NCBI GenBank assembly: GCA_019677205.1
Contig: JAAMXY010000606.1
Coordinates: forward strand, 50,198 to 114,197
Source: Pinguiococcus pyrenoidosus
Taxonomy: Eukaryota > Sar > Pinguiophyceae > Pinguiochrysidales > Pinguiochrysidaceae
Length of the DNA stretch: 64,000 nucleotides
Direction of reading: 5' to 3'
Every line of letters begins with the position of its first letter. The first letter of the stretch is position 1. Position numbers and translations under genes: made by a program. The notes beneath the pieces were generated by a model, which searched no databases, had not been told where the DNA came from, and saw nothing but the letters and a program-made list of their open reading frames with translations. Of the stretch, positions 20,559 through 64,000 are shown piece after piece.

Positions 20559-21112
20559 CGTCGTGGATGAAACGCGCAAGGCACACAGCCCCCGAACGTG
20601 GGCATCAGCTTCAGCCCAGTGATGCACATCTTCGATCTCATCCCGAGAGGAAGGAAGGAAGGAACCAATAGCAATAGTGCAGCGGACCGCTGCGGCACAT
20701 GAATCGAGATGCAGGCCGGTCCCAAGCTTATCCACGCCAGGGTCTTCTGGACACGCCATCCAACCCACTGGACGTGGCGCGGTACCCCAGACCGGAGAAG
20801 GAGGCGAAACGGAGGCGTCCCGGAAGCCCTCTGGCGCCAATGCACCATTGGGTAGGAGCATAATTCAATATATTTGAAATTATTCTAAATGACCTATGAT
20901 TGGATAATATACGAAACTGAAATTCGAAGCTCAAATGTTCCAGCCGTTTCATCTCGAGAACTCTGCGCTTTGGTGTTGCGGTACCGCGCCAATCGCCTTT
21001 CTTTCTTGCGGCCGCGCATCGGCTTTAGATCTGCCGAGCTCTGTGGCACTCGAGATCCTGCAGTTTCAGAAAGAATCCCAAGGGGCGGCACGGCATTGCA
21101 CAGCTCGGCGGC
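20559..21112. promoter_or_regulatory. Spacer and presumed promoter of CFAP221
   Basis: 554 bp between two genes on the same strand. A short AT-rich island lies at 20855-20945 and GC-rich leader-like sequence follows. Small open frames here show no recognisable protein. Confidence 0.4.
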
Positions 21113-24100
21113 ATGGAGGTCCAGGAGCAGGGCGTCCCAGACGCCCTTGTTGCCATGCCGCACAGTAAAGCGGGCAATCCGCTGGAGAAAGCACACACGT
21201 ACTCAGTGGTGGGCGGAAACGGGATCTTCACGGTGCAGCCATCCATCCTACACTTTCCGGAGCTTCACGTGCATCAGGAGATGACGCAGAGGCTTCGGGT
21301 CACCAACGTGGATACGGTGGCTCATCGCTTCCACTTGGTGGCTCTCAAGAGCGATGCCTTCGAGGTGGAGCCAGAGGGCGTGGAGAGGATTCCTCCAGGG
21401 CTTTCCCGGACCATTCGGGTGACGCTGAAGACGAAAGAGCTTCGATACCACTACGATGCCCTGCGGCTTCACTGCGGCGCGGCGAACATTCTCGTGCCGA
21501 TGCACGCCTATCCAGCTGTGGCCAAGGTGGACTTCCCTAGCCGGCTGGACATGGGCCATTGCCCGTTGGCGGAGAAGACGGTGCGCAGCTTCTTCCTCAA
21601 GGTCGACGTGCCGATCGACTTCGAGTTTGACCTGAAAGTGCTTGACGAGCATCCCCACTTCCGCATCACGACGCCCATGAAGGGCATCGCTCCGGCCAAT
21701 GGCGCAGTTGAGATCAGAGTGGAGTTCGAGCCGATCACGCTGGGCACGGCGTCCTTCCGCTTCTTGCTGAACGTGGCCCAGTACGGCTTCGCGCCGCGAG
21801 AGGTTACGGTCGTTGCGTCCAGTCTGGCGGGCCTAGATCGAGAGCGGAGGCTGAAAGAGACTCTGGAGATGCTGCAGAGCACGCTGGGCCCGGACCTGGG
21901 CGTCTCGAGGGAGCCGATCCGCTTGGAGGGTGCCATGAAAGCGGCCGGCTACGGTGCCTTCACCAAGCCCTTGACGAAGACGAAGGCACAGATGATGGTG
22001 GACGAGAAGCACAAACCTCCCGCCGACCGTATGCTGCAGTCCTGGGCGCCTCCCAAGAAGTATGCTCCGTTCGGGCCTGGCAGCGGCGCTGTCTTCGACG
22101 CCGGGGCGGAGTATGTGAGCAACTTAAGCCGCCTCTCGTGGGAGAAGAACAAGCCGCCCGAGGTGGACGCGGACGCCGAGCCGGCGGTGGATGTGGTGGA
22201 AGGGTTGCGAATCCCGAGGCAGCTGGAAGGCGTCAACGCTGTCAACTTCGTCTTAACGCAGAGGGAAGGGAAGCTGAAGCCAGCGGACCTTAAGAAGGCG
22301 ATCGCCGAGCAGCGACGGGAAAGGGCGAAGCGAAAGGCAGCGGAGGACGCGCTGCGTCGGGAATCCGGCAGCAGTGGGGCGATCGCAAGAGGCAGCAATG
22401 CGGAGATCGACTCCACCTTAGACGTCCGCATGATCCTGAGCTTCGAGAAAGCCGTCATGGGAAGCCGCGAGGACGAGAACAGTACGAGACAAGTGATGGA
22501 GTTGGCGTTCCTGCAGGATCTCAAAGAGATTGAGGACGAGGAGAAGGAACGCGCGTTTCGTTCCAGTGTGACGGCGGTGGGCTCGCGACTGCTTCGACCC
22601 AACGACATCGAAGCAATCCGCCTCCAGCGAGGCTCTCTGGAGAGGTCGAGCAAGCTGGCGATGCGAGAACGAGATCGTGGCATGACAGCAACTCGGCGCC
22701 AAGGCCCAAGGAAGGTTGGCCCGGGCATGGCCCGGGCAGGCTTCTTTGTGGGCGATTCCCAACCTGGTGACATGCTAGAGGCTTCACCGGCGGAAGCTGA
22801 CGCGGCGGCGAAGATGGCGGACATGTGGCGCAATCGCTCGCAGACGCTGCAGAGGCTCGCGTACATCGTCGGGAAGTGGATCGTGCGCCAGCGCGCCAGG
22901 CGAAGAATCATCGCGATCAGGAAACGCCTCGGCGAGGCTTGGGGTGATCGAGACGCGGTGCGCCGACTGGTGGAAGAGGACAACGAAGCCGCTCGACGGG
23001 GGAATCCAATCCTTCCGAAGGGTGACGGGGCGGGAAGGGGGAGAAGCACGTCACGACCAAGCAGTCGAGCAGAGGCCGAAAACGTGCAGGATTGGTTCGA
23101 GGTTCCCTGGCTCGCAGGCGTTCGAACGGAAGATGACTGGAGATGGAAGGCAGACGACTTCGGCGAGAAGCAAGCCTCCAGCAAGCGCATCTCCTTTCGG
23201 ACCATCGTAGTTGGGAGGAAGGGCTTGCCGACGTGGATAGAACCGGTGGGCTCGGCGCTCTCAAAGGACGAAGTGAAACAACGGGATCGAGCCTTCCCGC
23301 AGGGGTGGGATGTCGAGGAAGGTTGGGGTGCTTCCGAGCCGCCGATCTTCCAGACGTTGACGTACGTGCCGCTGCGAGTGTCGGACGACGCGAAAGCAAT
23401 GGGATACGCGAAGGAGCCGCTTCCTGTGGTTGACCCGCAGCATCCAGTGCATGCGGATCGCGCCGTCCGGAGCGGAGCAGAGTATGAACTGGGAAAGATG
23501 CTGCCCCTGGATGACGCACCGGACAGTGCCACCGACTGCTCCGCGTGGGCCTCGGGGCAGAGACCTTGGCGGGAGGCGGATGGGTTGCTAGACCTGGCCT
23601 TCCTGCAGAGGGCCTCGGAAGGCGACGCGGATGCCACCTCGAGACAGATCCTAGATTCCGTGGATGCGGGAGCACAGATTGAGAAGAGCCTGCTGATGGC
23701 GGAGACATCCGATCCCGAGTTTCTCGTCGAGTCGGAGGAGAATCGGGAGGGGGAACTGCCAGAGCAGAGGGAGCGGCGCCTTGAGATACAGGAAGGCCAC
23801 ACTGCCGCGGTATCGCAGCTGCACGACCATTTCCTTCGGCCAGCATTCCCGAGGAGCCCAGGGCTGGACTACCTGCTGCCGGGGCCTTGGGACTTCGCCC
23901 TCGCCCCCCCACCGTCCATGCACGAAGGGGACCTCGAATGGAGCCTACGGCCTCGGCAGCTTCCGGTCGCGCTGTCCACAACGCAGAAAGACCGAGCGCA
24001 AAGGGGCGAGGATCTCTTCGGCATTGCTTTCATGGCAGCCAACGAAGACGGCTCCTGGTCGGCGGAAGCATCCCCAAGGGAAGGCATGTCAGCAGCCGAA

Positions 24101-24643
24101 GGGCTTTGCGCGGGAGCGCGTGCCGTGGAGCTCTCCTCGAAGTGGCAGGCTCCGCTCGATCTCGTCGCGGCCCCTCTGAACGCGCTCGAAGCCAGCACGG
24201 GGGTTGTCGCTCGATGGGACACGGATGAGCTGGAGGAAAGGGGCTTCCTCCCGCGGCGCAAGCGAAGACGGGCAGACGTGCAAAGCTTGAGCGATTCCGA
24301 GTCGGACGATGACGAGGACGACCGAGAGCGGCTCGCGGAGATGCAGCTGCTAGACCGAAGCAAGTACAGCAAAGAAGTTGTTACGCCGGAAGCAGCAGTG
24401 TCCTTCCTCGGCGAAGACGCCAACCGCGCCGAGGCTCTCTTGGCAATCCGCCGGGACCGCTGCATGCTGGAAGCCGAGGACGTGAAGCGGCAATCGCGTC
24501 TCAAGGGTCTTGCCGCCTTCACAGATAGATTGATACAGCTGTCCTCGGCGATTGGGAATCTGAATCTGAAGTTCGTAGTCCAGCGTCCATTCTTCCAGAC
24601 TGCAGAAGCGCAACGCGACGTCGACGCCGCAGAAGTGAAGTAG
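21113..24643 (+). CDS. CFAP221: Cilia- and flagella-associated protein 221 (central-pair C1d projection)
   Basis: A single exon of 1176 residues. Residues 40-245 match the N-terminal domain of CFAP221/Pcdp1: FTVQPSILHFPELHVHQ, ELRYHYDALRLHCG, LVPMHAYPAVAKVDFPSRLD, VPIDFEFDLKVLDEHPHFRI and IAPANGAVEIRVEFEPITLG. These are ASH/MSP-like beta domains. Residues about 577-610 (QRLAYIVGKWIVRQRARRR) look like an IQ helix, which agrees with calmodulin binding known for this protein. The rest is charged and partly helical. CFAP221 is a subunit of the C1d complex that regulates ciliary beating. Its partner CFAP54 is encoded 2.8 kb downstream on the other strand. The gene converges with the ferredoxin gene, leaving 94 bp between the stops. 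Confidence 0.93.
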   Translation: MEVQEQGVPDALVAMPHSKAGNPLEKAHTYSVVGGNGIFTVQPSILHFPELHVHQEMTQRLRVTNVDTVAHRFHLVALKSDAFEVEPEGVERIPPGLSRTIRVTLKTKELRYHYDALRLHCGAANILVPMHAYPAVAKVDFPSRLDMGHCPLAEKTVRSFFLKVDVPIDFEFDLKVLDEHPHFRITTPMKGIAPANGAVEIRVEFEPITLGTASFRFLLNVAQYGFAPREVTVVASSLAGLDRERRLKETLEMLQSTLGPDLGVSREPIRLEGAMKAAGYGAFTKPLTKTKAQMMVDEKHKPPADRMLQSWAPPKKYAPFGPGSGAVFDAGAEYVSNLSRLSWEKNKPPEVDADAEPAVDVVEGLRIPRQLEGVNAVNFVLTQREGKLKPADLKKAIAEQRRERAKRKAAEDALRRESGSSGAIARGSNAEIDSTLDVRMILSFEKAVMGSREDENSTRQVMELAFLQDLKEIEDEEKERAFRSSVTAVGSRLLRPNDIEAIRLQRGSLERSSKLAMRERDRGMTATRRQGPRKVGPGMARAGFFVGDSQPGDMLEASPAEADAAAKMADMWRNRSQTLQRLAYIVGKWIVRQRARRRIIAIRKRLGEAWGDRDAVRRLVEEDNEAARRGNPILPKGDGAGRGRSTSRPSSRAEAENVQDWFEVPWLAGVRTEDDWRWKADDFGEKQASSKRISFRTIVVGRKGLPTWIEPVGSALSKDEVKQRDRAFPQGWDVEEGWGASEPPIFQTLTYVPLRVSDDAKAMGYAKEPLPVVDPQHPVHADRAVRSGAEYELGKMLPLDDAPDSATDCSAWASGQRPWREADGLLDLAFLQRASEGDADATSRQILDSVDAGAQIEKSLLMAETSDPEFLVESEENREGELPEQRERRLEIQEGHTAAVSQLHDHFLRPAFPRSPGLDYLLPGPWDFALAPPPSMHEGDLEWSLRPRQLPVALSTTQKDRAQRGEDLFGIAFMAANEDGSWSAEASPREGMSAAEGLCAGARAVELSSKWQAPLDLVAAPLNALEASTGVVARWDTDELEERGFLPRRKRRRADVQSLSDSESDDDEDDRERLAEMQLLDRSKYSKEVVTPEAAVSFLGEDANRAEALLAIRRDRCMLEAEDVKRQSRLKGLAAFTDRLIQLSSAIGNLNLKFVVQRPFFQTAEAQRDVDAAEVK

Positions 24644-40265: not shown

Positions 40266-40648
40266 GCTGCCCGCTGGGCGCTGAGGCAGAAGCAATGAGG
40301 TGGCGTGCGTGACAGAGGCAACACGTAGCTGAAGCGGCGGACAGAGGCTGCAGGCCAGAATCCCGAGAGGGGGTGTAAGTATGAAGAACATGCTTGTATA
40401 TATCAATGCGCTAATTAAATTCGAATGAAGTATACTTTTTTATTGAGATGGGTTAGATATATGTATTATATCAAGAGATAAAATATATATATAACATGGG
40501 TAAAAACTGCTCGGCCAATGCTATAGTTCCCACCATTGCCCACAAGCGGCGTTTCCGCGTCGGATACGCCGCCCCGGACCAGTCCGAGGCGCTCGTGGGC
40601 GTCTCAGAGGCCGCCATAGTCTGGCAGGGCGGGACGCGTCGTTCCAGG
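40266..40648. promoter_or_regulatory. Divergent promoter of fibrillin and SWIB genes
   Basis: Very AT-rich from 40385 to 40500, ending in a TATA run (TATATATATAAC) at about 40482-40495, then a CCAAT at 40514. The TATA run argues that the ATG at 40496 is too close to be used. Confidence 0.5.
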
Positions 40649-42016
40649 ATGGCGGAAGCGGCATCAGCTGATGCCGCAAGCGGGCCTCTGCCCACCGACG
40701 ACGCTCTGGTGGACTTCGTCCGAGAGGCTCTCCAAGGCGCGGATCTGGACACCGTGACTTCGAAGGACATTCGCAGGAAGGCAGAGGCGCACTTTGATGT
40801 GCCTCTGAAGTCCAAGAAGGACGTCATCAAAGCGACGATCCAGGAGTTTGTGGAGGCAATGGACGAGTCAGAAGAGGCAGCGCAGCAGGCAGCACCCCAG
40901 GAACCGAAGCCGAAAGGCCGGGGAAAGGGTCTCCAGAAGGAAATGCTCCTGAGCGAGGGCTTGGCGAATCTCCTGGGCTGCGCCAGCGGGAAAATGGCGC
41001 GGACGCAGGTCACGAAGAGCATCTGGGCCTACATCAAGAAGCACGATCTGCAGGATCCCAGGGACCGCCGGCGGATTCTGCTGGACCAGCCCCTCCAGGA
41101 GCTCTTCAAGGCGAAGACGTGCACGCTCTTCTCCATCAACAAGCACCTGACCAAGCACCTCTGGGTCGACGACCCAGATCTCGTGGTCACACACACCGTC
41201 GACGCCGAGCCGCCAGAGGATGACGCGGCAGTCGCGCCCGAGGTGAAGCCCAGAAAAAAGGCGCCGGGAGCGAAGCGGAAGAAGCCGCCGAGCTCGGGTG
41301 ACGGGCGTGCTTCCGGATTGAGTAAACCGGTGCGTTCATGTCGCGGATGAGACTAGAAGACCATGAGGATGAGCATCAAGAGGAGAAGGAACGTCCAGCT
41401 AAGGCATCGTCTCCCCAATCTGTCCTTGTCGCAGTATGAGATCTCCCCGGCACTGCAGAGAATTGTCGGTGCCGAGGAGCTGCCGAGAACGGAGGTGACC
41501 AAGAAGATTTGGGTCTACATCCGGGAGCACAGTTTGCAGGATGAGAACGATAGGAGAACGATCTTGTGGGACGAGGTGGGCGAAGAAGTGTTCGGCCTGC
41601 CCTCCTGCTCGATGTTCAAGATTGCGAAGCTGGTCAACGTGCACCTGCGCGACGTGGGCTCGGACACGCCCTTTGGCGACCCGCAGGTTGCGGCAGAAGC
41701 GGTGCTGAATGAAAGCGCGGACAGCAAGCCAAAGAAGCGCCGAAAAACGGACAAGAACACGAGGGCACAAGGGGAAGGCCGGGGGCCGACGTACGACCTG
41801 AGCGACGCTCTCGCTGATGTTGTTGGATCGACACAGATGAAGCGGACGGAAGTGACGAAGCAGCTTTGGGTGTACATACGGGAGCACTCCCTGCAGAACC
41901 CGGAGGACCGTAGGGAGATCCTGTGCGATGACGCCCTGCAGAGCATATTTGGAAAGGCAAGCGTGTCCATGTTTGAGATGGCCAAGCTGATCGGCGCACA
42001 CCTTACGAAAATATAG
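40649..42016 (+). CDS. DEK_C plus triple SWIB/MDM2 domain protein
   Basis: Two exons, 40649-41329 and 41435-42016; 420 residues. An in-frame ATG at 40496 is rejected because it abuts a TATA-like run. Residues 18-75 are a DEK_C domain (DFVREALQGADLDTVTSKDI). Three SWIB domains follow, each with the T-(K/E)-V-T-K-x-(I/L)-W-x-Y-I core: TQVTKSIWAYIKKHDLQD, TEVTKKIWVYIREHSLQD and TEVTKQLWVYIREHSLQN. Between the first two lies a Lys-rich linker. SWIB proteins occur in chromatin remodelling and, in algae and plants, in organelle nucleoids; no targeting peptide is seen, so the nucleus is more likely. The acceptor TTGTCGCAG after a pyrimidine tract joins GLSKP to YEISPALQ as in other SWIB proteins. 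Confidence 0.88.
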
Positions 42017-55215: not shown

Positions 55216-57569
55216 CTACGCTGACGGAGAGTTCTTTCGGTCGTCGTTCCCGACGGGGCCTCCTTCCTCGACTGGCACCGCCGCCTGGCCCGCCGTGGTG
55301 TACGCCATGTTGTAGGGAGACGCGCTGCCGGGGCCGTACTGCATGTAGAATGGATTGACTGCCTGCGCGCCGGAGGGGCTCATGGCCGCAGCTGCCAGGT
55401 ACTGCTGCTCCAAAACCGCCTGCTGGTTCGGGTCGACGTTCTGGCTGCCGTAGTACCCGGTCGCCATCATGGGGTTCATGTAGGCGTTGGCATACTGCGC
55501 ATTCATCGCCATGCTGTACGCGTAGTTCGGGTACTCCTGCCCACGCGGGTCGCGCTCGGCCTCGCTCGGCACGCTGCCCTGCGACCCCTTGCTCATGGCT
55601 GCCATGGGATGCACCACGCCCGGGTCGGCAACGTGCCCGGCGGGCGACATCTGCATGGTCATCGCTGGCATGGCCGAGAGGGTCCCCGCTCCGTTGGCGC
55701 CGTACATCATCTCCCAGCTCGGTACGCTGCCTAGTGCTGCGGATTGGACCGGGTGATGCTGGGGACTCATGTGCTTGCCCGCGGCTGGGTTCGCGGCAGG
55801 GCCCACGTGCTGCGCGTAGGTCTGCGGTTGGGCCTGCGGCTGCGGCGGCTGGGACGACGGGTGCTGAGGCTGCGCCTGCTGCGCGGTCTGCGGCGGCGCT
55901 GTCGGCAGCTGCTGCGGGGCCTGCTGCTGCGCCTGCAGGTGCTGGGCCTGCACGCCGGGCATGTACGCTCCCATGGAAGCCGCTGGGGCCAGGTTCAGGA
56001 ACGGTGCGGCCCCTTGAACGGCCGTGGCCACCATGGAGCTTCCTCCCGCCGTGGTGGCCGGGAAGCTGGACGACGCTGGGACTCCGCCACTGCTTGCCGG
56101 CGACGGCGGCGACGGCTCCTGGCTGTTGAAACCCATCAGGTGGGACGAGTACGCTGGACTGGGCGCCGCCAGGTAGTACGGCGGACTCATCTGGGCGAAC
56201 TGGTAGTCCTGGGGAGGCAGGCACTGCTCGCACACAACGCGGCAGCCCTTGATCACGATGCTCTGCTGGCTGGACTCGCGAAGCAGCAGCTCGAAGCCCT
56301 CCTGGCCCTCGGGCGTGTTCTGGATGTCCGCTACAAAAATCCTTCTGCCGTCGTTCGTGCCGGAGAGCAGAAGCGCTGCGCGTTAGCCGGGGAGGGGGGG
56401 GGGAGGCTCTCCCTCGCATGTGCGCGTCTCGTCAATTCCTACCTGTAGTCGCCGGAGGCCGTCGCGGCCGGGACGGGCCACATCTGGCGTATCTCTCCCA
56501 GCGGCAGGCCTTCGTAGATGCGCTTGAAGGCGGTGGCGATGCTGCCGCGCCGGACCTCGCTCGAGCTCGGCCCGAGGACTGTCACTTTCATCTGCAGAAT
56601 CGGAGGATAGGGGTTGATGTGCATCGGCGGCCTGGCCGCCCATCCCCGGTTGATGCTGCCCTTGGGGTCCATCATCTGCGGCATCTGCGCCATTGGATCT
56701 AGGTGCGGATACGGCGGCGCGTACTTGTTCCGGAAGCGCTTGTTGTCCTTCACGTGCCAATCGACACGCAGGAGCGCGCCGTGCAGGTTCACGCGATTGT
56801 TCACGGCGTCCCGAGCGCTCTCGGCGTGCTGGCGATAGAGGAACTTGATGATGGCGGATGGCCCGACCTTGCCGCCGGCGAAGCCCGGCTCCGCGGGGCG
56901 CATGACGCAGTGCTCCTTGTCTAGTGGTCCGTGCTCCTCAAAGATGGCCTCGAGCTCGTCCTTGGTCACGTCCTCGGTGAGGTTGGTCACGTGGAGCTCG
57001 CAGTTCTTCTGGGCGTAGTTGATGCGGATGCGGCGGCCCTTGATGGGCACGCCGTTCATCTCGCGGAGCGCCCGCTGGGCCCCGTCCTCCGTGTCTAGCT
57101 TGAGGAAGCCGTAGCCGAGGTTGCGGCCCGACACCTTGTCTCTCTTCACCTCGGCAAAGACTATCTTGCCGTAGGGCGAGAAGGCCTTCTGAAGGTCTTC
57201 TTCGGTGGTGGACCGGTGCAAGTCGCCCACGAAGAGGTGGCAGCGATCCAGCAGCTTGGCGTACGCATCCGGCGCCGACGGCCGAATCACCTTCTCCGCT
57301 CCGTGGTCGAGGCCCGAGCCGGCGGAGTGGGCTGCCACGGCCTTGACGGCCTCGGGCTCACCCACGGCGGGTGGCGCGGCCGCGCTCGGCGCGGCCGCGC
57401 TGGGCTCAGCGTGGAGTGCCTGCGGGCGCTCGGCACTCGCTGGCGGCGCGGTGGCCACATGGCGCGCGTCTTCGGGAATAGCGTCCTGGCTGATGCTCAG
57501 CTGTCCTAGGCGCTCTGCTACGGGAGCGGGGTGTGGCGGGCTCATTGCGGCTTGGGACGCGTTGGACAT
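55216..57569 (-). CDS. RNA-binding protein with tandem RRM domains and a Gln/Ala-rich tail
   Basis: Two exons, 57569-56443 and 56344-55216; 751 residues. Residues about 110-185 form RRM1 with RNP2 LFVGDL and RNP1 GRNLGYGFLKLD. RRM2 (about 190-275) begins CELHVTNLTEDVTKDELEAI and has AIIKFLYRQHAESA in place of a standard RNP1. A third folded segment (about 310-430) spans the exon junction and includes RRIFVADIQNTPEG. The last 300 residues are Gln/Ala/Pro/Met-rich, as in proteins that enter RNA granules. The intron acceptor was chosen to keep frame. The family beyond RRM is not clear. Confidence 0.83.
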
Positions 57570-59492
57570 ACTCCCTCAAGAACCTGTGAAAGAACGAAAG
57601 GTGAACCTCCGTTTTCATGAGCGGACGCGCGGCTTCAACTGCAACTGATCGGCGGCTCGCGAGCCTCTCACGCCCCACACGCGCCCTCAGCGCCCTAGCC
57701 ATCCGCGCGCGAGGCTCACTCGTGCGGCGGAGACGCACCTGGCGTGCCTCTGCGCTGGAAAATCGGTCGCCTTCGGTCTCTTTCGAGCGGGGCGGACGGC
57801 GCCGAACTTGACGAAAGTTCACGCGTCGGGCGCGGCGACTTACGGATGCGGCGTCTCAGGCTGCTTTCGCAGCGAGGCCGTGCGTCGATGGAGCGCACTG
57901 GCCCGCGAAGGCCGGCCTTTCCGCGGCGGTGCGACGGAGATCTCGACGGCTCTGAAAAAGCTGGTGGGTTTCGGTGCGGACTCGCGACACGTGTAGGTAA
58001 GCTGCGCGGCGAAAGCGACGGAGGTCAGTCAGGCGCTGGAATCGCCGAGCCTCAAGAGCATCACACTGGCGGACCGGGAGCTGCAGCGCGACGTCGGGCG
58101 CTCACGGGCGTAGTCTTCGTTTTGGCGGGAACGTCCAGTTGCATGCGTAGGGCAGGTGGGTAATGGAGTTCGGCACCCTCAAGAAGGAATGCGATTTGGG
58201 CCAATGGCGGCGCTCCAGCAGAACGGCCTGGCGACGAAATGGCGAATAGGACGAACGGTCTTCCTACCTGGCACCAATGGTGCTCCCCGGACCGCGCTTT
58301 TTAATCTTCTAAACGCGGCACAGAACTTTCCGCGGCGGCGCGCAGTGGCCATTGGCGCCCCTGATGTGGCCAATGGCGCGAAGCTCAGCTTCAAAGGGTA
58401 AGCGAAATTGCGAAAGCTGATTGGAGGGCTCCGGCTTGAACGATGACGTCTGGATGCACCTTGGTGCCCACCAATCATGGCGATGGCCGTTTTCCGGGGA
58501 CCTCCGGCAGTCGGCCCGTCCAAGCTCCCCGAGCGTTCATGTGCCCTGCTATGGCTTTTCAGGCGAGACGTTAGAATCCCGGGAGATGGCGTGCATTGGC
58601 CACACGAGCCGGGGTTTCAGGCGGCCAGGAAGCCCCGCCAGCTGCTGCATCGTCGCTGGGCCAATCCGGCGCAACTTGAGGCGGGCATCGATCCTGCGCC
58701 AGTTCGCACTCGAGCAACAGAAACAAGAAGCAAGCTCCGACCTGCAAATTTTTGGGCACCGCCGACCTGCGCGAGGGTCGGCGCGAGCGACGAGCCATCT
58801 GCCGCGCCTGCAGAGCTCCTCAGGGCAGGAGCGTGACGCCGCTTCCTGCCGCTCGGGTGTAACGACCTGCTGCCCTTGACTTCTTCATTCTCCCTGCGTG
58901 GCTCGCTCCTTCTTGGCGGCTGACGGCACGCACGCACGCACGGCCGCGCCGCAGCCCCTGCCTCGCTCCTCCTCCTCGCTCCTAGCTACTACCTCCTCCT
59001 TCCTTTTCAATCCTGTCCTAAATCCTCGCTTCTTGCTCGCCTTTGCGAAGCAGGCCAGCAGCACTGCCTGTGGCTGGCTTCTTGACTTCCTGCGACTCGT
59101 TCTTAGAAAACGGGGAAACGTGCATCGTTCTTAGCAACCGTGCATCATGCATGCAGCGATCCTGCATGCCCTGGCTGCATGCATGGCTCGCTAGCTGAGG
59201 CAGGGCGGCGCGGCCGGCGCCTGCGACACATGCTCTGCCTTTCCTCCGCAGTCCCGAGTCTGCGGAGCGCGAGCTGATGTACGTCAGCGCGTCGGCTGAT
59301 GTCACCCCATGATATCTAGGAGAAGCTCGACGACGCGGCTCCTCGTACGTATTTCTAGCTTGGCAAGGCCGTGGCGCACGGGCAGACTCCGATCCCAGCC
59401 CTCCGTCACAGCTTCGCCTGCCTCCCCGAACGTCTTGTTTTGAGCCTTGGAACGAAGTTGATGTTTTTCAAATCTTCCTCGAAACGGGCAAA
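57570..59492. promoter_or_regulatory. Long divergent region with CCAAT cluster and E2F-like site
   Basis: 1.9 kb with no credible gene. TTTTGGCGGGAAC-type sequence is at 58120-58132. Seven CCAAT/ATTGG boxes fall in 465 bp (58201, 58274, 58351, 58370, 58471, 58595 and 58661). A GCAC tetranucleotide run is near 58927-58942. The open frames at 57744-58879 show no domain and no bias like the neighbouring genes. Confidence 0.45.
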
Positions 59493-62400
59493 ATGTTCCG
59501 AGAGTCTGTCACGACGCCGGCCTTGGGCAGGGCCCGCGCGCGCTCCAGTGGCAAGATGAGCCTGAGCGAGCGGGCGTCGCCGCCGAGGTCCATCTCTCCA
59601 ACGCTGCTTCGCTCCGATGCGCTTTCCGAGAAGATCCTGCGGCGCACCAGGGCGCTGCTCCGCGGCAAGGGCAAGGCCTCCAGCTCCCAGGACTTCTCGA
59701 CGCTCCAGAAGGCGCAGAAGGAGCTGTGGCTCCTCAGGAAGGTACGGCGGAGCGGGCGTGAGCAGAGGGGGAGCACGAGGGAAGTGGGCACTCACCAAAT
59801 GCTGCAACGCTCCCTGCAGGACGTCTACGCCTCGGCAACGATGAAGCGACTCCTCGCCCAGCAGGACGTCTCCCTGGCAGAGCCCGTGATTCCGAAGGCG
59901 TTTGACGAGAGGCCAGTGCAGCTGTCTGCCAGGAGCCTCCCCGAGAAGTCCGTCGCCTCGCTGCTGGGCACGAGCAAGCGACGGCGGCATGCCGATGCCA
60001 AGGACGACGAGAAGGACTGCAGCCTTGCAGCCACCGTCGCCGGGCTGCCGCAGACCACGGAGCGCACCACGGAGGCTGCCTTCTTGTCGGCTTACGAGCA
60101 GTGCTACGCCGGACTCCAGGCCATCGGGGAGAGCGGCATGACGCTCTTGGAGGAGCTCGTGGAGAAGGCGGCGCGCAAGTGCGACGAGGCCAGGGCCTCC
60201 GGCGTCGCCAGGTGCTTCGGGGCGGCGTGCTTGACCGAATCTGGACGATTCTACGCCGGCTGCAACGTCGAGAGCAGCAGCAATCCCCAGCTGAGCGTCT
60301 CCGCGGCGCGGACCGCCGTGCTGAAGGCAGTGTCCGATGGCGAGCGGCACTTTCAGGGGCTCGTCATTGCAACCACCGCGGGAGGGGAGGGATTCCCCGC
60401 TCCCGACGGGGCCACGAGGCAGTTCCTGGCGGACTTTGGGGACTTCCCGGTCTTCCTCGTGGACAAGGACATGCGGCTGAAGAAGACCTCCACGAGGCTC
60501 CTCTTCCCGCTGCAGCCCAACCCGGCTGCCGGCGAAGTGCAGGCCACGACCGAGGAAGACGCGGCCGTGGCCGCCTTGCACCGCGGCCGCCGGGACCCTG
60601 GCGAGTGGACCGTGTCGGACGTGCTTGAGTGGCTCGAGTTTGAGATGGAGCTGCCGCGGTACAGGTGGTTGTTCTCGCGGGCCAAAGTCGACGGAGCGAT
60701 GCTGCTGCAGATCAGCGAGGCCGACCTCAAGGGGGACGGACTGCTGGACATACCGCACAGTATGCACCGATGGAAGTTGCTGCATGGCATTCAGCGCCTT
60801 CGGGAAATCGAGGCGGAGAAGCGAATCGACTACGATGACCTCGACTTCTTCCTGGGGGAGCTGGATCGAGGGCGCTTCAAGCTCGTGGCCAAGCTCAAGG
60901 TCGCCTTCGACAACTGTGCCGGCGCGGACGCAGATGGGAAGGTCACGGCGAAGGAGGCCGCGCAGGCGATGAAACTCATGGGCATGGAGGTGGACAGGAG
61001 CGAAGCCGCCCAGCAGTGGCTCGAGCAGATCCCCGACGGCGAGCAGATCACCTTCGAAGACTTCTGTGTCGCCTACACAGAGATCTTCGCCGTCGACGAC
61101 CCCGACGTCGTGCCCGACACCGCGATCGCTTCCCGACTGAATGAGAAGGACCGCAAGGTGTTCTACGACAGAAAGACGGGCCATGTCAAGCTTCGCCGTC
61201 GCCGACCGACTCGTGCCGATGCGTCCCCGCCGAGGACCGCAAGGAGCCGGACTGGCAGCGAGTCGCGACGAAGCCACCAGCCAAGCGTGGACATCCAGAC
61301 CAGCAAGGCAGGGCATCGCCATCTGGAGCAGGTCCTGCCGATGAAGGAGCTTGCCAAGATCAAATCCACCTTCGACCGCCTCGCCGTCGGCGGAGCTCTC
61401 ACCGCGTCGGAGGCCATCCAAGGGCTGCTGGAGCTGGGCAGCATCGCACCTCGAAAGCGGATCGCGAAGTACCTCCGAGACCACGGGAAGTTCGGCGTCC
61501 GACGCGATGTTGACTTCTACTTCTTCCTGAGGGCCCACGTGGCCTTTGACTTGGTGTCTGACCCCTACGCCAGACCTGAGGATGGAAGCGACCCGTCGGA
61601 GGACAATACGAGCCCACTGAGGCGCAGCGGCCAGGACACTGTCGGGCGCGCGATCGACCTTCTCGACAAGGGCGTCTCGTCGCCCATGTCTCAGCGATCC
61701 TTCCTCAGAAGCCCGCGTAGCTTGCAGCCGTCTCTCAAGGGTTCGCCTCGGAACGATCGCTTGTCGAAGAGCCTGGACTGGGGCGGCTTTGTGGCGCCCA
61801 AGAATCGGGTGGCGTCCTTCGCCTTTTCGCCCACCAGCTTGCGAAGCGGCGCGACGTCCCGCCGAAGCCGAAAGTCTCTTCGGAGCCGCAGCCGGCGCTT
61901 CGTGTCTCCAACGCCCAGCGACACCTCCAGCACCGATTCGGGGGATTCCGATTCCTCATCCCTCGATAGCGATTCGACGTCGTCGTCGGACTCGGAAGAA
62001 TCCGCTCGAAGGCGCCGCCGGAGAAGGCGCCACTGGAGGCGGAGACGATCTCGAAGACGCCACCGGAGAAGCCGCCGGCGCAGGAAAAGCCGCAGATCTC
62101 GACGCCGCAGGAGGCGTCGGCGCGATCACAGGAATCTCTCGTCGGACTCCAGCGACGGAGAGAGCGACTCTTCTAGCCGGTCGACACCTCGATCCAGGTC
62201 GGCATCTCACAGCCACACGCGCCATGCGGAGGGTGAGCATGTGCGCGTCCGATCCGAGCGGACTGGTCACCACTTTGAGGGAAGGATAACCTACGTACAC
62301 GCCGATGACAAGAAATACGACGTGAAGTATGACGATGGTACGACGGAGAAAAGGGTGCCGAGACATCGCATCAAGGGCGCTTCACACCGGCCTCCCAGCC

Positions 62401-64000
62401 ACGACGACAAGACGAAGTCTCCTCGGGAACGGCATACGAAGTTTCGAGAGGGTGACAAGGTGGAAGCGCGCTGGCGAGGCCGGAGGTGGTGTACAGGCGT
62501 CATCGGTCGTGTCAACAAGGATGGTACCTATGCCGTCGACTACGACGACGGTGACGCGGAGAGCGGAATCCGGGAGGATCTGATACGTTTCAAGGGTGAG
62601 AACGACCCCAGTCATGCGTCTCTTGGAGAAGGAGACAAGGTGGAGGCTCGATATCGCGGGCGCAGCCGATGGTACTCGGGACGGATCTCGCGCAAAAACG
62701 ACGATGGCACGTACGACATCGACTATGACGACGGCGAGAAGGAAAGAAGCGTGAGGAAGGAACTCATCAAGCTCGTTGGCCAAACTGCTGGCGGGAAAGA
62801 GATTTGCGATCACTTCCGCAAGGGAGACCGAATTGAGGCGCGATATCGAGGCCGGGGCAAGTGGTATCCAGGGCGCATCCGGCAAGACAATGACGACGGT
62901 ACCTACGATATCGACTACGACGACGGCGAGAGGGAGCGAGCTGTCAAGGCCGAGCTCGTCAAGCTTCTCCGGGTGGACCGTCGTGATCGTCAGGACGACG
63001 ACGACAGCTACAGCGATCGCCGCGACCGCGGTGGGAGAGGCGAGGGCTTCCGAGAGGGTGACAAGATTGAAGCCCGGTATCGCGGTCGCAGTCGATGGTA
63101 CGCTGGTCGAATCAGCCGCGAAAACGGTGATGGCACATACGACATCGACTACGACGATGGTGAGAAAGAGCGGGGTGTCAAGGAGGAGCTCATCAAGCGC
63201 GGCGGAGGCCGCGAGAGAAGTGCGGATCGCGGTGGACAATCAAGCCGGGCGTCGTTTCGGAGCGGTGACAAGATCGAAGCTCGGTATCGGGGACGAAGCC
63301 GCTGGTACGCTGGGCGCATCCAGCGGAGCAACGGAGATGGAACGTACGACATCGCCTACGACGATGGCGAGAAGGAGCGCGGCGTTAGAGAAGAGCTTAT
63401 CAAAATGGCTGGGCGAGGGGACCGTGACCGCAGAGACGAAGATTGGGACGCCAATAGAGAGCGTGGCGGCGGCAGCAGCGGCGGCAGTCGTTTCCGCGAA
63501 GGTGACAAGATCGAAGCTCGCTATCGAGGCCGCAGCCGCTGGTACGCAGGTCGGATCAGCCGCGACAATGGTGATGGTACCTACGACATCGACTACGACG
63601 ACGGTGAGAAGGAGCGAGGAGTTAAGAGTGACCTCATCAAGCTCACATCTGGAGGGTCGCGGGATCGAAGCAGGGAACGCGGCGGGCGTGAAGGCGGTGG
63701 GGGCATTCGAGAAGGCGATAGGATCGAGGCGCGATACCGAGGCCGTAGCCGCTGGTATGCCGGACGCATTAGACGCGACAACGGCGATGGGACGTTCGAT
63801 GTCGACTACGATGACGGAGAAAAAGAGCGGGGAGTCAAAGAAGAGCTCATCAAGCTTGCCGACGGCGGTGACCATGGTCGTGGAGATAGGGAAGATCTTA
63901 CCGATAACCGAAGTCGGAGCAGACGAGGAAGTGGTCTTAGCGAGGGCGACAAGATTGAAGCGCGATACCGTGGTCGAAGTCGTTGGTATGCCGGGCGCAT
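59493..64000 (+). CDS. Large multidomain protein: degenerate cytidine deaminase, SAM, EF-hand-like, Arg/Ser-rich, Tudor/Agenet array (3' end beyond the window)
   Basis: Exon 1 is 59493-59741; exon 2 starts at 59820 and stays open to the right edge, giving 1476 codons so far. Residues about 175-325 follow cytidine deaminase (GRFYAGCNVESSS, RTAVLKAVSDGERHFQGLVI, RQFLADFG), but the zinc and catalytic residues are replaced: Ser244 and Ala246 stand where Cys and Glu of CAE belong, and Asp279 and Thr282 where the PCxxC cysteines belong. It should be inactive. Residues 344-414 are a SAM domain (DVLEWLEFEMELPRYRWLF). Residues 433-510 and 592-665 are EF-hand-like helix pairs with poor calcium loops. 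Residues 690-880 are Arg/Ser-rich. From residue 889 at least nine Tudor-like units follow. No family with this order is known to me. Confidence 0.85.
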   Translation, partial: MFRESVTTPALGRARARSSGKMSLSERASPPRSISPTLLRSDALSEKILRRTRALLRGKGKASSSQDFSTLQKAQKELWLLRKVRRSGREQRGSTREVGTHQMLQRSLQDVYASATMKRLLAQQDVSLAEPVIPKAFDERPVQLSARSLPEKSVASLLGTSKRRRHADAKDDEKDCSLAATVAGLPQTTERTTEAAFLSAYEQCYAGLQAIGESGMTLLEELVEKAARKCDEARASGVARCFGAACLTESGRFYAGCNVESSSNPQLSVSAARTAVLKAVSDGERHFQGLVIATTAGGEGFPAPDGATRQFLADFGDFPVFLVDKDMRLKKTSTRLLFPLQPNPAAGEVQATTEEDAAVAALHRGRRDPGEWTVSDVLEWLEFEMELPRYRWLFSRAKVDGAMLLQISEADLKGDGLLDIPHSMHRWKLLHGIQRLREIEAEKRIDYDDLDFFLGELDRGRFKLVAKLKVAFDNCAGADADGKVTAKEAAQAMKLMGMEVDRSEAAQQWLEQIPDGEQITFEDFCVAYTEIFAVDDPDVVPDTAIASRLNEKDRKVFYDRKTGHVKLRRRRPTRADASPPRTARSRTGSESRRSHQPSVDIQTSKAGHRHLEQVLPMKELAKIKSTFDRLAVGGALTASEAIQGLLELGSIAPRKRIAKYLRDHGKFGVRRDVDFYFFLRAHVAFDLVSDPYARPEDGSDPSEDNTSPLRRSGQDTVGRAIDLLDKGVSSPMSQRSFLRSPRSLQPSLKGSPRNDRLSKSLDWGGFVAPKNRVASFAFSPTSLRSGATSRRSRKSLRSRSRRFVSPTPSDTSSTDSGDSDSSSLDSDSTSSSDSEESARRRRRRRRHWRRRRSRRRHRRSRRRRKSRRSRRRRRRRRDHRNLSSDSSDGESDSSSRSTPRSRSASHSHTRHAEGEHVRVRSERTGHHFEGRITYVHADDKKYDVKYDDGTTEKRVPRHRIKGASHRPPSHDDKTKSPRERHTKFREGDKVEARWRGRRWCTGVIGRVNKDGTYAVDYDDGDAESGIREDLIRFKGENDPSHASLGEGDKVEARYRGRSRWYSGRISRKNDDGTYDIDYDDGEKERSVRKELIKLVGQTAGGKEICDHFRKGDRIEARYRGRGKWYPGRIRQDNDDGTYDIDYDDGERERAVKAELVKLLRVDRRDRQDDDDSYSDRRDRGGRGEGFREGDKIEARYRGRSRWYAGRISRENGDGTYDIDYDDGEKERGVKEELIKRGGGRERSADRGGQSSRASFRSGDKIEARYRGRSRWYAGRIQRSNGDGTYDIAYDDGEKERGVREELIKMAGRGDRDRRDEDWDANRERGGGSSGGSRFREGDKIEARYRGRSRWYAGRISRDNGDGTYDIDYDDGEKERGVKSDLIKLTSGGSRDRSRERGGREGGGGIREGDRIEARYRGRSRWYAGRIRRDNGDGTFDVDYDDGEKERGVKEELIKLADGGDHGRGDREDLTDNRSRSRRGSGLSEGDKIEARYRGRSRWYAGR
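62238..64000 (+). repeat. Tandem array of Tudor/Agenet-like repeats
   Basis: Units begin near 62238 (divergent), 62442, 62622, 62814, 63048, 63255, 63492, 63705 and 63936; the last is cut by the edge. Spacing is 180-237 nt because the linkers vary. The core is GDKIEARYRGRSRWYAGRI,  then DGTYDIDYDDGEKERGV and an ELIKL end. Units 3 to 9 are almost the same at the protein level. Such modules are small beta barrels that often bind methylated Lys or Arg, or nucleic acids. Confidence 0.92.

Follow-up and report, generated by a model that had tools for sequence, protein, structure and literature searches.

The window analysed here, a 64,000-nucleotide stretch of the genome of the alga Pinguiococcus pyrenoidosus, ends within a gene for a large protein that carries a cytidine deaminase (CDA) fold devoid of its catalytic residues. 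In the open frame, this fold is followed first by a SAM domain and an EF-hand-like pair, then by a stretch rich in Arg and Ser and, last, by nine Tudor units. A homologous fold, the loss of the catalytic residues and retention in relatives together characterize the CDA part as a pseudoenzyme. Since these relatives carry a similarly damaged part, it appears to have been kept and repurposed as a module, and not to be a piece of a broken gene; that it belongs to a family is a new result. We favor the interpretation that the protein is probably a non-enzymatic scaffold or reader, that is, a large algal protein retaining a dead CDA-fold module. The host group of the module is probably the photosynthetic stramenopiles among the algae.

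The frame at 59493-63998 (+) extends over 1502 codons without a stop and runs off the window edge. On base composition alone, a stop-free run of this length would occur by chance with a probability of about 2e-20, and the GC content per codon position (0.635/0.515/0.746) is of the coding type at GC3. The fusion of the CDA part with the other modules, proposed in a sequence-only reading of this DNA, is carried by one continuous frame. The right edge of the window coincides with the contig end, so the 3' end of the gene is missing from the contig itself and not just from the window; the contig terminus is a repeat array. The encoded protein has at least 1476 residues (Table 1). When the putative intron is spliced out, the residue numbers of the sequence-only reading are exact; in the unspliced frame, its Ser244, Ala246, Asp279 and Thr282 are residues 270, 272, 305 and 308.

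Table 1. Features of the pseudo-CDA gene, in positions of the window.
Feature	Position	Strand	Remark
Putative exon 1	59493..59741	+	first ATG; start choice inferred; upstream in-frame stop at 59310
Putative 78-nt GT..AG intron	59742..59819	+	multiple of 3; frame open spliced or not
Putative exon 2	59820..63998	+	open up to contig end
Pseudo-cytidine-deaminase domain	60105..60539	+	
Asn-x-Glu, retained	60264..60272	+	invariant in all 43 rows of alignment A4
Ser-Ala-Ala replacing Cys-Ala-Glu	60300..60308	+	
Asp-Gly-Ala-Thr replacing Cys-Gly-Ala-Cys	60405..60416	+	
SAM domain	60603..60803	+	Pfam SAM_1 E 5.9e-12 (on piece), above cut-off
EF-hand-like pair	60882..61076	+	loops not fully canonical
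Arg/Ser-rich stretch	61857..62225	+	
Nine Tudor-like units	62238..63998	+	ninth ends with contig
Tudor-like unit starts	62238, 62451, 62631, 62823, 63057, 63264, 63501, 63714, 63945	+	

Several other genes were observed in the window and in the genome. A protein with two RRM stretches (56439-57569, -) adjoins the pseudo-CDA gene, and a protein with DEK_C and SWIB/MDM2 domains lies at 40457-41347 (+). HYDIN/CFAP65-like Ig domains, encoded at 21029-24640 (+), suggest a flagellated alga. The genome yields 29 light-harvesting matches (exon pieces), and an ADAFAF-type presequence, which we read as plastid-type, is present; together they suggest a red-derived complex plastid.

CDAs are salvage enzymes, and the membership of the window domain in their superfamily is certain. 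Its profile match is to TIGR01354, the tetrameric cytidine deaminase (E 7e-14), at scores of 52.2 bits for a 176-residue piece and 47.1 for the whole frame, below the NCBI equivalog cut-off of 113.65 bits. The predicted structure of this part matches human and mouse CDA, and structure alignments with human 1mq0, mouse 1zab and Bacillus subtilis 1jtk give 29-32% identity; the profile search and the structure prediction thus both agree with the fold assigned earlier. In the alignment with human and mouse CDA, CAE becomes SAA and PCGAC becomes PDGAT. The three zinc cysteines are replaced by Ser, Asp and Thr and the catalytic Glu by Ala, exactly the four losses that had been claimed. No further pseudo-CDA copy was found in the genome (23.7 Mb, 768 contigs), where the window copy is the sole match. 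Another contig, C32, carries a CDA exon with an intact CAE (locus L044, 480-2422, -); its other frames likely hold further CDA exons, with an unusual CGAYC motif, and this gene is probably the ordinary CDA of the alga.

A search with the window domain over 177 candidates revealed one ordinary CDA together with two close relatives, which are 61 and 64% identical to the query over 54% of its length. A second search, with a three-row alignment, scored 7998 candidates and returned 46 proteins at E <= 0.001. P0001, P0002, P0004, P0005 and P0009-P0012, all short fragments, group with the window protein; P0009 comes from the brown alga Choristocarpus tenellus. The N-terminal pieces P0006-P0008 are also relatives, left uncounted since the motifs lie past the point at which they end or go out of frame. 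Alignment A4 comprises 43 rows, nine of the family and 34 canonical, and omits the hits P0003, P0006, P0007, P0008 and P0026. In a tree computed with the four site columns removed, the nine rows fall on one side of a branch, against 35 others, with a support of 100/100; the same branch is recovered in two further trees, at 98/100 and, with other outgroup rows, at 100/100.

Comparison of these rows reveals a graded damage of the active site. At positions 65, 67, 99 and 102 (which we take as human CDA numbering, here and below), the window has S, A, D, T; P0009 has G, E, D, G; P0010 has C, E, D, A; and P0011 and P0012 both have T, L, D, G. At the covered sites, P0001 shows S, L; P0002 T, L; P0004 N, E; and P0005 T, E. 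Cys65 is thus lost in eight of nine family rows yet Glu67 in five, which indicates a stepwise decay. In the second zinc motif, all five covering family rows replace Cys99 with Asp and lack Cys102; a CVGC at this place of P0005 was not counted, as this part of the sequence seems to fall outside the exon. Since the catalytic Glu is kept by 4/9 rows, and Cys65 as well by P0010, full loss is not family-wide. Furthermore, the sequences of P0001, P0002, P0011 and P0012 resemble each other closely, and their source may be one or a few species, so the loss of Glu67 rests on two lineages. The canonical rows, by contrast, keep Cys65 and Glu67 in 34/34 cases and Cys99/Cys102 in all 32 that reach the second motif, P0022 and P0039 ending before it. 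The resulting motif series, CAE/PDGGA, NAE, TAE, GAE/PDGAG, TAL/PDGTG and SAA/PDGAT, with intact CDAs as an outgroup, makes the order of loss directly testable. The earlier proposal of a pseudoenzyme is strengthened, the residue loss being partly common to the group of nine rows.

A long-protein search with residues 170-620 found no relative at E <= 0.001 among 7999 candidates scored, and viral contigs, scanned once with the window domain and once with P0010, held no relatives. The viral scan with the family alignment yielded three loci, in all of which CAE and PCGxC are readable. A prokaryote scan, looking for a single peptide pattern, detected 19 loci; 18 keep the Cys, the Glu and the PCxxC pair (one with CGE, two with PCAIC), and one, L048, is dead. 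Viral loci included, the strict CAER flag was obtained for 6/22 loci and the PCG.C flag for 19/22.

The SAM domain stands by Pfam (SAM_1, PF00536, 39.4 bits versus a cut-off of 23), as had been claimed. Its best PDB match is the liprin SAM (E 7.9e-9), and the STIM1 SAM is matched at E 0.0017; the SAM part of the predicted model is poor (block pLDDT about 47-70). For the "EF-like" module of the sequence-only reading, the likeness is real but weak. The EF-hand region retrieves 224 distinct PDB sequences at E <= 1 (best E 2.7e-4), the best 60 of which are all calmodulins or troponin C, but its Pfam EF-hand matches (E 0.07 and 0.14) lie below the cut-off, and its low-confidence model has no Foldseek match at E <= 0.001. 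The CDA-SAM fusion gains support from P0010, whose own SAM is above the Pfam cut-off. P0010 and the window protein are collinear: their alignment begins in the middle of the CDA, crosses the linker and the SAM and reaches the beginning of the following region with the order unbroken (48% over 218 columns, 10 gaps). In P0004, a Tudor-like stretch precedes the pseudo-CDA (E 7e-6 in one pairwise BLASTP against the window protein; no Pfam match), so the Tudor position may vary. The complete domain order is present in none of the relatives, which are short fragments.

The Tudor array comprises nine units, eight complete and the ninth cut by the contig end, which agrees with the earlier count of at least nine. 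Pfam identifies eight Tudor_5 and eight Agenet stretches in the protein, with scores for PF18359 and PF05641 of 111.3 bits versus a cut-off of 31 and 82.8 versus 27. Most units are closely alike, and six of nine carry the pattern EARY..WY..[YF]D[IV].YDDG, whose aromatic-cage positions we placed after 53BP1. In the PDB, a single unit matches the 53BP1 Tudor at E 0.002; its top match, made up of three weak pieces, is to the filamin-type repeat of a gelation factor (E 3e-4). Contig C712 begins inside a five-unit Tudor array (3-1115), and C481 also begins inside such an array. Mean DNA identity is 0.68 between C712 units and seven window units (35 comparisons), 0.66 among these seven (21 comparisons) and 0.575 between C481 and window units (84 comparisons). 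C712 is likely, though unproved, the 3' part of the window gene, as its unit sequences suggest; no end overlap was found for a continuation of the gene onto other contigs. Long Tudor-array frames with EF-hands are observed in C481 (3-7121, with three PUB stretches), C380 (1672-9105) and C696 (7162-9279).

What the dead pocket could still do depends on the residues kept around it. Asn54, Glu56 and Arg68 are identical in all 43 rows of A4, including 9/9 family rows, and Asn-x-Glu is the ribose contact in CDAs. On the other hand, the residues that face the base in canonical CDAs, namely the Pro and Tyr of the APYS loop and the Tyr following Asn-x-Glu, are lost here: the APYS Pro and Tyr are each present in 28/33 canonical rows and in none of the six family rows (the window row among them) that span the loop, and the Tyr following Asn-x-Glu (28/34 canonical rows) is Pro in eight of nine family rows and Ala in one. 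A canonical cytidine pocket is thus unlikely, judging from these positions, while a ribose contact could remain. The nucleoside binding suggested earlier is weakened by these losses. One might suppose that the protein is a sensor, in which catalysis was lost, the ribose pocket was kept and nucleoside or nucleotide binding switches assembly of the SAM/Tudor scaffold. The invariance of Asn-x-Glu and of the Arg that follows CAE speaks for it, as does the position of all 17 invariant family columns around them, although several rows cover little else; the loss of the base side in the same rows makes it rather unlikely, and it overlaps with the scaffold or reader interpretation. Much less probable is a residual enzyme with another metal site or a chemistry using the conserved Asp of the PDG motif. 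This Asp replaces the same Cys in 5/5 covering rows, and some rows keep Glu67 or, in P0010, Cys65; but at most one of the three Cys ligands is left in any row covering both motifs, and in the window row the Glu is gone along with all of the Cys.

For the scaffold or reader that we favor, the pseudo-CDA would derive from a tetrameric-CDA ancestor and, with the SAM domain, could mediate self-association or docking; a structural or docking role appears likelier for it than ribose-ligand binding. The EF-hand-like pair may add Ca2+ control, and the Tudor array would engage methyl-Arg/Lys ligands multivalently, either on chromatin or on RNP. Judging from its composition, the Arg/Ser-rich stretch possibly serves nuclear localization or RNP contact, and a nuclear site would be consistent with it. 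A scaffold of the cilium or centrosome, instead of a nuclear reader, finds some support in the multi-Tudor/EF-hand paralogs of the alga (C481 with its PUB stretches, C380 and C696) and in the HYDIN/CFAP65-like gene of the window, with its HYDIN-like Ig domain at 21029-24640. However, gene linkage says little in eukaryotes, and the Arg/Ser-rich stretch and the 53BP1 Tudor likeness would lean toward the nucleus, which leaves the ciliary alternative improbable. An artefact, either a pseudogene or two genes read as one, might be suspected from the repeat array at the contig end and from a gene structure predicted from DNA alone. It is scarcely credible against 1502 codons without a stop, a coding-type GC3 and a relative, P0010, collinear through CDA and SAM, and was ruled out on these grounds.

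The dead prokaryote locus L048, from Halodesulfovibrio spirochaetisodalis, is also the best prokaryote match (E 2e-16), and it thereby discloses a second, bacterial dead-CDA family. In L048 (2161-3390), the CDA is the C-terminal part and is joined to a solute-binding domain of family 3 (PF00497, E 7.1e-28), behind a leader resembling a signal peptide; the solute-binding domain was Pfam-tested in L048, and five more translations show a like stretch before the CDA part. Among 149 genomes from the Desulfovibrio-like family of L048, 54 match the CDA part at E <= 0.001, some of these matches being short frames that may be ordinary CDAs. None of the best 30 bacterial loci (L070-L099, the L048 locus included) has Cys65, Glu67, Cys99 or Cys102, while the Asn is kept in 25/30 and the Glu of Asn-x-Glu in 30/30. 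In a tree including 13 of the 30 and leaving out P0036, P0043, P0046 and P0047, a branch with a support of 100/99 separates the bacterial loci from the rest. A single origin for the algal and the bacterial dead CDAs is neither favored nor rejected by the data of two trees (p-AU 0.39 and 0.37). As a speculation that we hold to be unlikely in its full extent, dead CDA folds would be a recurrent binding or assembly module, recruited perhaps twice, into SAM-EF-Tudor scaffolds of ochrophyte-type algae and into fusions with a periplasmic-type solute-binding domain in Desulfovibrio-like bacteria. The metal site would have been erased and the Asn-x-Glu ribose contact preserved in most of them, and the protein of the alga would act as a multivalent methyl-reader, gated by a ribose ligand and tuned by Ca2+.

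We know of no retained, catalytically dead CDA inside a reader or scaffold protein. The domain order had been put forward as undescribed, and indeed no description of the combination, or of such a dead deaminase, was found in open PMC papers; the domain-clan tables of PMC8409312 are unrelated to it.

Several known systems resemble parts of the window protein. With tetrameric CDA, the window domain has in common the fold, the GCNVE loop and the RQ helix; it differs by the replacement of the three zinc Cys and the Glu, by the loss of the APYS loop and by its place within a protein of at least 1476 residues. The C-terminal half of the E. coli-type dimeric CDA is non-catalytic with the deaminase fold kept, and ADAT3 and APOBEC2 are inactive deaminase-fold proteins. 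All likewise keep the fold without catalysis, but presumably represent separate lineages with separate partners, and the window fold, unlike them, shares one protein with SAM, with an EF-hand-like pair and with Tudor units. The Tudor units match PF18359 and PF05641, as Agenet/Tudor_5 proteins do, and 53BP1 weakly; in contrast to 53BP1, they form a nine-unit array, and the Pfam list of the protein has no BRCT match. In STIM1/2, an EF-hand adjoins SAM in a protein with membrane parts. An EF-hand lies beside SAM in the window protein too, but in reversed order and with a CDA fold in front.
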